Shown here in pieces: positions 5,199 through 18,822 of a stretch of 22,739 nucleotides of DNA; within the stretch, counting starts at the first letter, position 1, and each line of letters opens with the position of its first letter. Source of the stretch: a virus; the IMG/VR virus record IMGVR_UViG_3300045738_001042, positions 1 through 22,739 of that record; one strand, given 5' to 3'. Position numbers and translations under genes: made by a program. The notes beneath the pieces are model-generated. The model was not told the DNA's origin. It made no database searches and saw only the letters and a program-made list of their open reading frames with translations.

Positions 5199-5210
5199 TC
5201 GAGTTCTCCT
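5196..5210 (-). promoter_or_regulatory. Ribosome binding site and possible ATC start of the portal gene
   Basis: Read leftward, AGGAG (5210-5206) overlaps the stop codon of the ParB-like gene and is followed after seven bases by ATC (5198-5196), in frame with the portal. The ideal spacing is the main reason to propose this non-standard start. ATT 5189-5187 is the alternative. Confidence 0.45.
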
Positions 5211-5760
5211 ACTCCGACCTAGAGGCTTCTAACCACCGTTGAATGGCCTCATTTTTGTCGGGACCGTACTGTTTGAGATGCTGCCGGACGCGGTCCACCA
5301 CGCCACCCGGCAGTATGAAGGTGAGTCGTTGAGTATCGTCGGGGGGGCGGTCGGTGATGTCACTCACCGCTTCGTATTCCTCACCAACCAAGCACGCCGA
5401 TTCGCCCTGGTCGAAACCCAGGTCGTACCCAGTCAGGTCGCCCAAGAGGTCACCCAGGGTATCAATGTTCCATTCGGCAAGTTCGGCAGTGCGGTTCAGG
5501 GCGATATTGAGCGCCATCGCCGCCTGCTCGTCTATATCGAGCAGAACGACATCGGCCTCATCCCGACCTAGCCGCCGTAGCGCCTCAAGTCGGCCATGTC
5601 CAGCAATGAGCTTGTTTGTACCCTCCTGCACCAATAAGGGTTCAACCTGCCCGAACTGCCGAAAACTATCCATGATGGCCTCGATGTTCCGTTCACCGTG
5701 GATGCGGGGATTCCGATCATCCGGTAGTATCTCGTCAAGGGGTAACTGTACTACGTCCAT
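5209..5760 (-). CDS. ParB-like nuclease/N-terminal domain protein
   Basis: The 183-aa protein opens with the ParB N-terminal fold: PLDEILPDDRNPRIHGERN, then IMDSFRQFGQVEPLLVQ, then the signature NKLIAGHGRLEALRRLG (GHxR motif, near residues 53-61). It continues with LDIDEQAAMALNIALNRTAE. Such proteins occur in phage packaging regions, often next to terminase or fused to DNA methylases. Their role there is uncertain; nucleotide (CTP) binding is known for the ParB family. No methylase domain is attached. The start ATG 5760 overlaps the upstream stop as TGATG, indicating translational coupling; the TTG one codon earlier is unlikely. It ends by overlapping the portal ribosome site. Confidence 0.85.
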   Translation of the reverse strand: MDVVQLPLDEILPDDRNPRIHGERNIEAIMDSFRQFGQVEPLLVQEGTNKLIAGHGRLEALRRLGRDEADVVLLDIDEQAAMALNIALNRTAELAEWNIDTLGDLLGDLTGYDLGFDQGESACLVGEEYEAVSDITDRPPDDTQRLTFILPGGVVDRVRQHLKQYGPDKNEAIQRWLEASRSE

Positions 5761-5981
5761 CAATCACTCAGGCTGTGCATGAGTTGGTGCTTGATCATTT
5801 CGATCCAACTAAGCACCTCAAGCACTGTGGCCGACCCCGCCACCGAGAACCCCACGGAGTCCGTCGAGTCATCGTAGTAGACAAGCAGCGCGGATCGCCA
5901 GGTAGGGCCGTCGGCCTCCATGAGGGCGGCGAGCCGTTCGATACTCTCGGTACGATTCTTGGAAATCGGTACGACTTTCAT
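5760..5981 (-). CDS. Small protein of unknown function between large terminase and ParB-like gene
   Basis: The 73-aa product begins MKVVPISKNRTESIERLAAL. It has a helical N-terminal half, a central strand-rich patch (ALLVYYDDSTDSVGFSVAG) and a C-terminal helix (LEVLSWIEMIKHQLMHSLSD). No family is recognised. It is almost certainly expressed: its ATG overlaps the terminase stop as TAATG and its own stop overlaps the ParB-like start as TGATG, so three genes are translationally chained. No signal peptide or membrane segment is seen. Confidence 0.75.
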   Translation of the reverse strand: MKVVPISKNRTESIERLAALMEADGPTWRSALLVYYDDSTDSVGFSVAGSATVLEVLSWIEMIKHQLMHSLSD

Positions 5982-7393: not shown

Positions 7394-7832
7394 CGTGCTC
7401 GATTAGCTGGGCGTCCTCTATCACCTCATCACCCTCATGGAATAACCCGAGCGTGGGTTTTACGGTGTGTTCGATCTGGTGGAGGGTGGGGATGCTGTCG
7501 TAAACGCCAAGTTGTTGGCCCGTGTCGATGATGCGTTGGTGGAGTTCACTGATTTGTCGGGTGACCCGCTCGACGGAATGTAGCTTACCATCGGCCGCGT
7601 ATTCCTGCCGAATCGCCATTAAGTCACTGATCAAACTACGGGTAGAGTGGTAGAACGACGGCCAGACGTTACGGACATCAGCAGCTTGTTCGATCAGCTT
7701 TTCCCAACGAGCGCGGTATTCCTTGCGGCTGAATCCCAATCGGTGGCGCACCTCACTAGGCGGCACACCCGCGGCGAGCATCCTGCGGACCTTCCGCAGG
7801 TCATCCGTCACGCGGTCTTGTTCATCCGGCAT
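7368..7832 (-). CDS. terS: Probable terminase small subunit
   Basis: The 154-aa protein directly precedes and overlaps the large terminase, the usual place for the DNA-recognition subunit. Residues about 8-45 (DDLRKVRRMLAAGVPPSEV, then LGFSRKEYRARWEKL) look like a helix-turn-helix. The middle is helical (RSLISDLMAIRQEYAADGK, VERVTRQISELHQRIIDTG), as expected for the oligomerisation core. The tail is acidic (EHDDDNPVYN). Start choice: ATG 7832 overlaps the upstream zinc-ribbon gene by only 11 bases. A GTG at 7853 would add seven residues but has no ribosome site. No specific family can be named from sequence alone, so the call rests on position plus architecture. Confidence 0.7.
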   Translation of the reverse strand: MPDEQDRVTDDLRKVRRMLAAGVPPSEVRHRLGFSRKEYRARWEKLIEQAADVRNVWPSFYHSTRSLISDLMAIRQEYAADGKLHSVERVTRQISELHQRIIDTGQQLGVYDSIPTLHQIEHTVKPTLGLFHEGDEVIEDAQLIEHDDDNPVYN

Positions 7833-12339: not shown

Positions 12340-12669
12340 ATGGGGTTAATGCGGCGCCCCCCGGGGCCGTTGTTCGAGCCTACTGCTCGCAAGACGGACC
12401 CGGGGACCAGTCACCATGCAGCGGCCACGGTTAAGCCGACTGAGTTGCGTCGTAAGGTGCTGACAGCACTGACCAAAGGCCCGGCGATAGCGGAGGTGTT
12501 GTGCGAGCGCACGGGGATTGCGTGGAACACACTCACGCCACGTTTGCGGGAAATCGAGCGCCGGGGGTGGATCGCCAGGGATGGCAAAGCGGTGGCCTCG
12601 ACGGGTCGCAGGCAGACCCGCTGGCAACTAACCCAAGAGGGGTGGAACACCTTGGGGGAAGGCAGGTGA
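12340..12669 (+). CDS. Winged-helix DNA-binding protein
   Basis: The 109-aa product begins with a proline-rich tail (MRRPPGPLFEPT) and the phrase KTDPGTSHHAA, seen in a common but unnamed family of phage winged-helix proteins. Residues 35-105 form the domain: LRRKVLTALTKGPAIAEVL, CERTGIAWNTLTPRLREIERR (recognition helix) and the wing GWIARDGK...RRQTRWQLT. It lies between SSB and the replication initiator with almost no spacing. It is probably a regulator or replication accessory DNA binder. Which DNA it binds cannot be seen. Confidence 0.75.
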   Translation: MGLMRRPPGPLFEPTARKTDPGTSHHAAATVKPTELRRKVLTALTKGPAIAEVLCERTGIAWNTLTPRLREIERRGWIARDGKAVASTGRRQTRWQLTQEGWNTLGEGR

Positions 12670-12673
12670 TGGT

Positions 12674-13498
12674 GTGGTTCGGATACGAACGATAAAGCCT
12701 GAGATTTTCAGGCATGAAATCTTGTGGGAGCTTGAAAAGGAAACCGGGCTACCCTGTACACTTATCTTCATGGGGCTCTTTTGCTGCGCCGACCGGGAAG
12801 GTCGTTTTAAGTGGCGCCCTCGCGAGTTAAAGCTAGATATCCGACCTTATGATGATGGCTTAGATTTTGGCATCGCGATGGATATCCTGTTTGAGGCAGG
12901 GCTAATCACCAAGTATGAAGTTGATGGAGAACCTTACGGTTTGGTCACGAAGTTCTCATCACACCAGGTGGTAAACCACCGTGAAGCGGAGTCGCGCCTA
13001 CCGGCGCCCCCCGGCGTGCCCGGGCGTGCCCCGGGCGTGCCCGGGCGTGCCCGGGGGGAAGGGAAGGGAACTGGAAGGGAACTGGAAGGGAAAGGGAAGG
13101 GAACTGGAGAAGAGGGGGTTCGTAAAAAAAGGTCCATCCATCCTGACGTGCAGGAGGTCTTCGACCACTGGTGCAAGTGTTTAAACCACCCGGCCAGCAC
13201 CCTGACCAAGCAGCGACAAGACCGGATTCTCCAACGAATAAAGGAGGGTTTTTCCACGGAAGACTTGAAGAAAGCCATTACCGGCTGCTCCCTGACTCCG
13301 CACAACATGGGCATTAACGAGCGTGGCGAGGTTTACGACTCGGTCATGCTCATCCTGAAGGATGCCGACCAGGTGGAGCGGTTCATGCGAAACGCAGACG
13401 CGCCGCCACGGGCGCCCTCAAAATCAGAGATGAAAGAGGCTCGTCACGTTGAAACGGCGAGGGAATTTCTAGGGAGGGCGAAGGGTGGAGGATCGTGA
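12674..13498 (+). CDS. Phage replication initiator / replisome organiser
   Basis: It starts with GTG 12674; AGG lies seven bases upstream. The 274-aa product opens with VRIRTIKPEIFRHEIL, then LIFMGLFCCADREGRFKWRP and LKLDIRPYD, then EAGLITKYEVDG and FSSHQVVNHREAESRLP. This is the N-terminal winged-helix domain of a widespread phage replication-protein family. Residues 112-148 are a low-complexity linker rich in G, P, R, K, E, encoded by two sets of short tandem repeats. The C-terminal domain (about 155-240; HPDVQEVFDHWCKCL, TLTKQRQDRILQRIKEGF) is helical, like the DnaD/DnaT-type tail that contacts the helicase loader. The next gene, loader-like, overlaps by 14 bases. Confidence 0.82.
   Translation: MVRIRTIKPEIFRHEILWELEKETGLPCTLIFMGLFCCADREGRFKWRPRELKLDIRPYDDGLDFGIAMDILFEAGLITKYEVDGEPYGLVTKFSSHQVVNHREAESRLPAPPGVPGRAPGVPGRARGEGKGTGRELEGKGKGTGEEGVRKKRSIHPDVQEVFDHWCKCLNHPASTLTKQRQDRILQRIKEGFSTEDLKKAITGCSLTPHNMGINERGEVYDSVMLILKDADQVERFMRNADAPPRAPSKSEMKEARHVETAREFLGRAKGGGS
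13014..13109 (+). repeat. Two sets of helically phased tandem repeats inside the initiator gene; candidate replication origin
   Basis: GCGTGCC begins at 13014, 13024, 13035 and 13045 (steps 10, 11, 10), each followed by CGGG or CCGGG. Then an 11-bp purine-rich unit (GGGAACTGGAA and close variants) repeats five times from 13055 to 13109. The 11-bp period is not a multiple of three, so selection at DNA level or slippage is more likely than protein repetition. In lambda and several other phages the origin lies in the linker of the initiator gene, exactly as here. Confidence 0.5.
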
Positions 13499-13988
13499 CC
13501 GCGGCCGTTTCGTGCGGGAGTTCGCAGCGAGGTGTTCAGCGAATAACTGGGTGATGCCCACGGCATTGGGCCTTGAGGTCTGGTGGCGTGATTTGCTGGC
13601 CTATCGCTGTGATGATGTGATTGAGGCGCTTGGACGGGCGACCATCGACTTCCTCCCCACGGTGCGGCGTGTGCAGACATACATCGACGGGACCAAGGAA
13701 GACCAGGCGATGAATGAATGGCTGCTGGTGCTCGATAGGGTCCGTGGGGGTGATAGGACCACTAAAGCCCTATCGCCCGCGGCCGTGCGTGCTATCGCGT
13801 GCATCGGCGGGATGTCGCGGTTGGGGCAAGCGCGGGATCGGGATTTACCATTCATCGCGAGGGATTTCGTTGGATTCTACCGACCCGAACTACCCCCATC
13901 GCCACCAGCCATCCCGCATGACGGCGGCCCCCTGAAGGCACTGCTCCGTGGAATCGGGAGAATGGACCGTGAGGAAAAAGATGGGTAG
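13485..13988 (+). CDS. Helicase-loader-like protein (G39P-type N-terminal fold)
   Basis: It starts with GTG 13485, overlapping the initiator by 14 bases, and encodes 167 residues. The N-terminal region (about 5-70: FAARCSANNWVMPTALGLEV, WRDLLAYRCDDVIEALGRAT, FLPTVRRVQTYI) resembles the helical domain of phage helicase loader/inhibitor proteins such as G39P. That family shares a 'W-x-x-L ... A-L ... P-T-x-x-x-I' pattern. The rest is helical and ends in a flexible proline-rich segment (PELPPSPPAIPHDGG). Its place right after the initiator, with no DnaB-type helicase in the window, fits a loader of the host replicative helicase. The similarity is by pattern only. Confidence 0.55.
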   Translation: MEDRDRGRFVREFAARCSANNWVMPTALGLEVWWRDLLAYRCDDVIEALGRATIDFLPTVRRVQTYIDGTKEDQAMNEWLLVLDRVRGGDRTTKALSPAAVRAIACIGGMSRLGQARDRDLPFIARDFVGFYRPELPPSPPAIPHDGGPLKALLRGIGRMDREEKDG

Positions 13989-17810: not shown

Positions 17811-18241
17811 TGCGGGTCTATTCGCGCTTCAACGAGGGGGTGGTGTACACGCTGCAATCCCACCGTGGGTTCGAGTGCTGTCAGTGCTCGTTATCGCGCC
17901 CACGAAAAACGATCACCGTGAAGAGCGCAGAAGACTTAATCATCCACCTGCACCACCACTTGGCGGTGGGCCATGAGGTGCCCGAGAAGGCCCTACAACT
18001 CTTATCCCGGGAAATCGGGGAACCGGACACGGGGCAGCCACGCTCGGCGTCCGCCACCGAAGCAGCCGCCAATGTGATTACCGGCGCGGGGGTCGCCTGG
18101 GTGCTCACGATGTGGGTGTTGCCGCTGTGGGGGCACGCCTACGCTATGCACGAGACTTTCGAGATTACCGCGGTGTACGCCTCGGCTGCGTTTATCCGGT
18201 CCTACTGTTTACGCCGATGCTTCGACAGGAGGTCCAGATGA
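17810..18241 (+). CDS. Zinc-finger domain fused to a DUF7220-like membrane protein
   Basis: The 143-aa product has two parts. Residues 1-65 carry GFECCQCSLSRPRKTITV and EDLIIHLHHHLAVGHEVPEK, a cysteine knuckle (C23/C26) followed by a histidine helix (H47-H55). This is a C2H2-like finger as in small phage zinc proteins. Residues 82-140 read TEAAANVITGAGVAWVLTMW, VLPLWGHAYAMHETFEI and AFIRSYCLRRCFD. That is the pattern of a widespread two-span phage protein (DUF7220-like: E-x-x-x-N-x-x-x-G, FPL-(W/F)-G, F-x-(R)-S-Y-x-x-R-R-x-F). The two parts are normally separate proteins. ATG 17810 is preferred over TTG 17807 because of the TGATG coupling. Family assignment of the second half is by pattern memory. 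Confidence 0.65.
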   Translation: MRVYSRFNEGVVYTLQSHRGFECCQCSLSRPRKTITVKSAEDLIIHLHHHLAVGHEVPEKALQLLSREIGEPDTGQPRSASATEAAANVITGAGVAWVLTMWVLPLWGHAYAMHETFEITAVYASAAFIRSYCLRRCFDRRSR

Positions 18242-18822
18242 GAACGGTTATCAGCTTGGCGTTTATCCTCATGGCGACTCCCGCGTGGGCGGTGATTTGC
18301 GGCGATAGTGATCTCAATGGAGTCATCAACATCCGCGACCCGTTACGGATTCTCCGACACTCCGTAGAGCTACCCTCCCCGTGTAAAGACAACGCCATCG
18401 TCTGCGACGTAGACGGTGATGGGGACATCGACGTGAACGACGCCCTGGATGTCCTACGCCGTGTGGTTGGTTACTGGTTGCCCATGGACTGTAAGTTCCC
18501 TGTCGTGGTGCAAGTCACGGGGGCAACCCCACTGGCTGGCATGAGCCTGACGCTGACCTATCCACCATCGCAGGCCACGGTTATGGCGGGGTGTGATTTC
18601 AACACTGGCGGGTTCGACTTGGCGCAGGCTTTCGCACCTAGCGATACCGAAACCGGGGTGGCGATGATTACCTTAACTGATGTCCCCCTTCCTGCGGATA
18701 TTATTCGGTGTGACGGCTATGGCCACTATGCCAGCTTGGTGGTTGTGGTCACTGAGGCTTTTGATGCGGATCTAAACGAGGCGGCGGTGGGTGTGGATGT
18801 TGTCCCCAACATGGCGCCGTGA
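18238..18822 (+). CDS. Secreted dockerin-like protein with a cohesin-like beta domain
   Basis: ATG 18238 has a strong AGGAGG five bases upstream and overlaps the previous stop (ATGA). The 194-aa product begins with a signal peptide (MRTVISLAFILMATPAWA, cleavage after residue 18). Two calcium-loop-helix units follow: GDSDLNGVINIRDPLRIL (D23, D25, N27, G28, N31, D34) and CDVDGDGDIDVNDALDVLRR (D57, D59, D61, G62, D65, D68). These are the paired F-hand repeats of type I dockerins. Residues 87-190 are beta-rich with PLAGMSLTLTYPPSQATV and end in VGVDVVPNMAP, resembling a cohesin/carbohydrate-binding Ig-like fold. Six cysteines may form disulfides. The partner and role are unknown. The frame is open upstream, but the signal peptide and ribosome site fix this start. 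Confidence 0.75.
   Translation: MRTVISLAFILMATPAWAVICGDSDLNGVINIRDPLRILRHSVELPSPCKDNAIVCDVDGDGDIDVNDALDVLRRVVGYWLPMDCKFPVVVQVTGATPLAGMSLTLTYPPSQATVMAGCDFNTGGFDLAQAFAPSDTETGVAMITLTDVPLPADIIRCDGYGHYASLVVVVTEAFDADLNEAAVGVDVVPNMAP

Follow-up and report, generated by a model that had tools for sequence, protein, structure and literature searches.

The linker of a phage initiator gene, in which helically phased iterons are followed by a coding-strand polypurine array, is very probably a lambda-type in-gene replication origin, judging from sequence comparison. The reading of the repeats as an origin that acts at the DNA level follows from two observations: the same linker layout recurs in 130 of 141 non-redundant relatives, which carry tandem repeats at this place, and the repeat signal is sensitive to codon shuffling. 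Taken alone, the window is an ordinary member of a widespread group with this probable origin architecture, a variant of the lambda/SPP1/RepA_N type that apparently has no earlier description; the results of interest are the family-wide layout rule and a second iteron array within the gene.

The initiator gene and its linker repeats

The window, the whole stretch of DNA that was analysed, comprises an entire virus record of 22,739 bases, has no direct terminal repeats and is probably part of a temperate phage genome. At the left, the minus strand carries the capsid, portal and terminase genes; between the terminase and portal genes, 5209-5763 (-) encodes a ParB N-terminal-like protein (E 2.6e-5, just under the Pfam cut-off). 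The plus strand carries, in order, genes for an integrase, a YqaJ/RecE-type exonuclease, an ERF annealing protein and an SSB, followed by a winged-helix gene and the initiator gene. The small winged-helix protein (12340-12669 (+), phrog_1123), encoded directly 5' of the initiator gene, may regulate the replication operon. In the early region, the product of 18112-18822 (+) is a probable secreted protein that weakly matches dockerin type I (E 1.8e-4, just under the Pfam cut-off). The features of the initiator locus are as follows.

12674..13498 (+): initiator gene, 274 aa, GTG start; PHROG 16167 'replication initiation protein' (E 3.5e-63), also PHROG 1408, 12556 and 2149
12674..13003 (+): coding sequence of the winged-helix domain, residues 1-110; AlphaFold2 model (mean pLDDT 92.6), weak Foldseek matches
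12866..12895 (+): codons of helix alpha-3, residues 65-74; site of array I in relatives, array I not detected in the window
13012..13052 (+): array II, four iterons (CGGCGTGCCC, then three copies of GGGCGTGCCC) at steps of 10, 11 and 10 bp, from Tandem Repeats Finder and motif positions; the decamer also occurs in the linkers of L571 and L580
13053..13118 (+): coding-strand polypurine array of GGGAA / GGAAGGGAACT units at an 11-bp step, about 90% purine on the coding strand; proposed unwinding or strand-capture element
13121..13393 (+): coding sequence of the C-terminal domain, approximately residues 150-240; PHROG O-like and phrog_21472 matches
13485..13988 (+): downstream gene; phrog_10105, unknown function, weak Pfam DUF6475 match

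The initiator is composed of an N-terminal winged-helix domain, a linker encoded by the repeats, and a C-terminal domain. Its N-terminal domain places it among the phage winged-helix replication initiators (PHROG 16167/1408/2149), and the family-invariant residues R3, R5, K8, P9, D40, G43 and Q98 are present. The AlphaFold2 model of the winged-helix domain, built from a 61-row alignment of IMG/VR rows only, contains helices at residues 28-38, 49-56 and 65-74 and beta strands at residues 44-46 and 78-83/86-91. A PDB sequence search gave no real match. Foldseek gave weak matches of the N-terminal domain to winged-helix proteins including 4pt7 'Structure of initiator', which we take to be a RepA_N-type plasmid initiator. 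The likeness to RepA_N is confined to this weak similarity of fold, with no Pfam RepA_N match at E<=1. The C-terminal part matches PHROG 18020 'replication initiation O-like' and PHROG 428, and some relatives match the initiator by tblastn in this part alone. The protein does not fall in the lambda O family, in that no Pfam match passes the threshold (Phg_2220_C reaches only E 0.15), the N-terminal domain belongs to other PHROGs and the C-terminal part alone is O-like. We propose that the C-terminal domain contacts the helicase or its loader; in relatives, a helicase loader or DnaB helicase is encoded at the position of the downstream gene (neighbours in L011 and L014-L016).

The two domains are separated by further insertions in some relatives. 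L017, L031, L038 and L100 carry an in-frame HNH nuclease domain that separates the winged helix from the C-terminal part, with a short-unit array 3' of the insert in the first three, and the initiator of phage Mx8 (L021) has an in-frame T5orf172/MUG113 insert (GIY-YIG type) between the same parts.

The first-pass annotation had described four GCGTGCC repeats at 10-11-bp steps, followed by five 11-bp purine-rich repeats. The former are confirmed in the linker at 13014, 13024, 13035 and 13045 (steps 10, 11, 10), within the decamers CGGCGTGCCC at 13012 and GGGCGTGCCC at 13022, 13033 and 13043. The 11-bp purine array is also real, but 'five' is a slight overcount, since the array is better described as four 21-nt copies at 13055, 13066, 13077 and 13088, in exact 11-bp steps, or as GGAAGGGAA at five uneven sites (13057, 13062, 13073, 13084 and 13095). 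Tandem Repeats Finder reports 13001-13056 with period 10/21, and 13062-13108 with period 11, 4.3 copies and an inner unit GGGAA. None of the periods (10, 11 and 5) is divisible by 3, and they break the codon frame, as had been pointed out. Among 2000 protein-preserving codon shuffles or redraws, GCGTGCC never occurs four times (maximum 2), and at 11 bp the purine zone has an autocorrelation of 0.40, above the value in every codon shuffle (maximum 0.33). Cumulative GC skew, suggested as a check on the origin, was of no help: in the window it reaches its minimum at 7448, the point of a switch in gene orientation, and the extrema of five complete relatives lie 1-30 kb from the linker. GC skew was set aside as an origin marker, as it tracks gene orientation in the window and in these relatives.

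The linker layout across relatives

Relatives were gathered by protein similarity, nearly all of them via the N-terminal domain, so the linker repeats had little or no influence on sampling. A first set, drawn from 16 annotated phage regions and from virus contigs, comprises 96 genes below 70% amino-acid identity; a hold-out, analysed with frozen settings, comprises 45 non-redundant genes of prophages in bacterial genomes, each with less than 70% identity to the first set. The case named in the first-pass annotation as contrary to an origin, the same protein with no repeats, was checked on both sets: linker repeats are found in 88/96 and then in 42/45 genes, and the array is kept while its sequence and copy number vary. 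The other genes (8/96 and 3/45) have no array at the threshold used, which counts against the origin reading. Repeat coverage in the three 60-nt bins 3' of the winged helix is 16%, 47% (+60-119 nt) and 12% for the first 96 relatives, and about 0.5% elsewhere within 1.8 kb.

The layout is constant: three to five iterons with an exact 11-bp step come first, and a coding-strand polypurine array with a 5-7-bp unit follows. In the autocorrelation over 73 genes, the first zone has its only peaks at 11, 22 and 33 bp and the second peaks at 5-6 bp, while control zones are flat. The iterons of the window, spaced at 10/11/10 bp, depart from the exact 11 of its relatives, and this too counts against the origin reading. 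Synonymous-codon shuffles that keep protein and codon usage give z=18.9 at lag 11 for the iteron zone and z=24.7 at lag 5 for the purine zone, with z=-0.1 for the C-terminal control. The linker repeats are under DNA-level constraint. The earlier preference for a DNA-level role over protein repetition is well supported by the shuffles and the comparison with relatives, and that comparison likewise argues well for the in-gene origin that had been suggested.

The iteron type is lineage-specific, while order and position are stable: the types are ACGCGT, TTCCAAGAA, TCACTGA, TACGGTA, TCCGGA, TCGACGA, GAAGCAAC and GGGCGTGCCC, and ACGCGT iterons fall in all three reading frames (34/38/29). A sense purine tract of at least 25 nt is present in 117 of the 141 relatives (76/96 and 41/45) and an antisense tract in two (1/96 and 1/45). 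The median GC of the tract is 0.51, against 0.54 for the gene; it is not A+T-rich, unlike known unwinding elements, which counts against the origin reading.

Scans of DNA blind to genes recovered the same loci. Virus contigs were scanned for ACGCGT-N5-ACGCGT-N5-ACGCGT independently of genes, and 105 of the 120 loci with this 11-bp step are winged-helix initiator genes. The window repeat GCGTGCCCGGGCGTGCCC gave 17 stretches, many of them near-identical copies from few viruses, and two of the 17 fall within the linkers of divergent winged-helix initiators: L571, with 38% identity across the aligned portion, and L580, with 35%. Both carry the window decamer on the opposite strand at 10-bp spacing, followed in L571 by a sense purine tract. 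From this arrangement, the quasi-palindromic iteron may lie in either orientation while that of the purine tract is fixed, as would be expected of binding sites beside an opening region. A scan for three copies of GGGAACA gave 101 stretches, 56 of which are initiator linkers, all sense. This G-quadruplex heptamer was rejected as a specific signature, because 44 of the 101 contigs lack an initiator domain; outside initiators (for example in L314, L331, L386 and L398) it lies in frame (GTGNREQGTG) in unrelated phage genes and is apparently a spreading simple repeat.

Two loci combine another N-terminal domain with the common C-terminal domain: L023 (1066-1866) has CGATATCAACG at 11 bp, then GAGACAGAG units, and L024 (1012-1872) has ATGCGAACGCATCAACAGAGA at 21 bp, then TACCCAA x4.4. 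The iteron-then-array layout may extend past the winged-helix domain family.

A second iteron array over the alpha-3 codons

For each phage, a three-copy 11-bp profile of its own linker iteron was run 2.4 kb in both directions. Apart from the linker itself, a single further peak appears in 55 of 73 loci, 100-160 nt 5' of the point where the winged-helix coding sequence ends; with the hold-out (10/40), this second array, array I, is found in 65 of 113 testable relatives. Its iteron type is that of the same phage's linker, with a mean score of 18.7 bits against the phage's own linker versus 2.3 against the linkers of phages whose domain identity is below 45% (z 12.3 by permutation), and it occurs in the ACGCGT, TTCCAAGAA, TCACTGA, TACGGTA, TCCGGA and TCGACGA lineages. 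In the ACGCGT class array I is present in 36 of 57 genes, versus 1 of 84 other genes. Codon shuffles indicate DNA-level constraint at array I (z 16). The profile scan found no array I in the window's own winged-helix codons. The count in the hold-out rules it out as a universal feature, and together with its absence from the window indicates that array I is lineage-restricted and not essential to the family.

On the AlphaFold2 model of the window's domain, the array I codons map onto helix alpha-3. By winged-helix topology, alpha-3 is the usual recognition helix. Tentatively, and with considerable doubt, we suggest from these sequence matches that in many phages of the family the alpha-3 codons may themselves form a binding-site array for the initiator, of the same type as the linker iterons. 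If so, protein specificity and DNA target would lie in one stretch of DNA and change together between lineages, and two initiator-DNA complexes would form 150-200 bp apart, with looping, copy control or autoregulation as possible outcomes. Array I would then be an unusual DNA-level signal, one that shapes the DNA-binding domain of the protein encoded there. ACGCGT linker iterons are used by lineages whose alpha-3 sequences are unrelated, so alpha-3 is unlikely to be the sole determinant of specificity, and the iterons could be bound by a protein other than the initiator.

Mechanism, alternatives and related origins

The lambda origin sits in the middle of gene O (PMC7466680), and the purines of its ori tract lie nearly all on one strand (PMC5043065). 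The window resembles it in having iterons between the DNA-binding and C-terminal domains and a strand-asymmetric purine region on the C-terminal side. In the lambda O control, four iterons are followed by AAAAGAAAAAAGAAAAGA, the gene's longest purine run, which shares place and polarity with the (GGAAA)n or (GGGAA)n arrays of the family. Lambda differs in its 18-bp iterons at approximately 20-24 bp, compared with the 11-bp steps of the family, and in its A+T-rich tract, compared with about 51% GC in the family and a G-rich tract in the window. Many relatives also have the second array in the codons of the DNA-binding domain, whereas no iteron-like cluster was seen upstream in lambda O.

Three other systems share parts of the layout. 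SPP1 oriL, inside gene 38, is likewise a phage origin of direct repeats and an unwinding element within the initiator gene (PMC6316719); its unwinding elements are A+T-rich, and it has a second origin about 13 kb away and no second array in the same gene. In pSK41 Rep, a winged-helix N-terminal domain binds four Rep boxes located centrally in rep, the ori encodes the linker, the C-terminal domain contacts host primase, and proteins without the linker peptide still work in trans (PMC5703833). The family shares the winged-helix N-terminal domain and the ori-encoded linker with this RepA_N protein, in addition to the weak 4pt7 fold match, but has no detectable sequence relation to it, and no such polypurine array is reported for RepA_N. 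Gram-negative PICI origins also have two iteron sets (PMC6092414), which lie 3' of rep and flank an AT-rich region, whereas in the family both arrays are intragenic and do not enclose the putative opening tract. The openly accessible literature searched holds no published account of the family's origin or linker repeats, or of the second array.

The parallels with lambda, SPP1 and pSK41 suggest as the most likely mechanism an order of winged helix, iterons, tract opening and helicase. Through their N-terminal winged helices, copies of the initiator would engage the helically phased iterons (13012-13052), forming a nucleoprotein complex that resembles the lambda O-some. Torsional stress would open the adjoining strand-asymmetric purine tract at 13053-13118, and one strand would be kept single-stranded. 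The C-terminal domain and downstream proteins would load the replicative helicase, on the model of lambda, SPP1 and pSK41, and the linker peptide would be a spacer whose sequence is mostly dictated by the DNA. By analogy, we infer that protein binding, opening, helicase loading and the start of replication would all take place at the linker. Because the tract is not A+T-rich, its essential property may be strand asymmetry or a strand-specific repeat, not low melting energy.

It is also conceivable, though unlikely, that the purine tract acts through an R-loop, G-quadruplex or triplex in place of lambda-type unwinding; the linker would still be an origin, and this explanation overlaps the preferred one. 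An R-loop role is possible because a transcript of the tract would be purine-rich, and the prevalence of purines on the coding strand, the GGGAACA x5-6 arrays (a G3N4 motif) of some relatives and the need of lambda for transcription near ori (PMC5043065) are consistent with such a role. Pseudomonas and Bordetella phages instead have a heptamer of reverse orientation, CTGATTC, the G runs of the window tract are irregular, and a test of hairpin or single-strand folding of that tract gave nothing exceptional (z=-1.65). A triplex formed by the one-strand purine run, raised at first pass, found no support; a strand-asymmetric unwinding region like that of lambda ori is the better reading.

Far less probable is that the repeats do nothing at the DNA level, having arisen by slippage in a mutation-tolerant disordered linker and persisted for the flexible, hydrophilic peptide that they encode (such as GKEGKG). 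Bacteria commonly carry short G-rich repeats, among them heptamers (PMC4692102), many GGGAACA arrays lie in unrelated genes, as noted above, and a purine array gives G/K/E/R-rich peptides in any frame. However, synonymous shuffles destroy the signal, neighbouring genes are almost repeat-free, and exact 11-bp iterons recur with sequences that differ between lineages and are matched by the second array 150-200 bp away. The peptide chemistry is moreover not conserved, since Pseudomonas-type relatives encode PDSLIPDSLI.

We give very little credence to the iterons being, in place of an origin, regulatory operators at which the initiator represses its own gene or a phage repressor acts: ACGCGT is common to lineages with unrelated alpha-3, and a protein bound to the array type that lies early in the gene could block transcription, but the arrays lie within the gene and not in a promoter, the own-iteron scan of +-2.4 kb has no upstream peak, and the adjoining strand-asymmetric tract fits an origin, not an operator.

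An in-gene origin of this layout would provide a sequence rule by which replication origins could be located in temperate phages and prophages of a very large group that has received little study. Family matches span Proteobacteria, Acidobacteria, Bacteroidota, Planctomycetota and Streptomyces phages, and most members are annotated merely as hypothetical or 'replication initiation protein'. As the binding site of the initiator is predicted lineage by lineage, the protein-DNA code of the family becomes testable. With this layout, the lambda rule of a purine-asymmetric opening region would also cover tracts that lack A+T richness, which would separate strand asymmetry from low melting energy.
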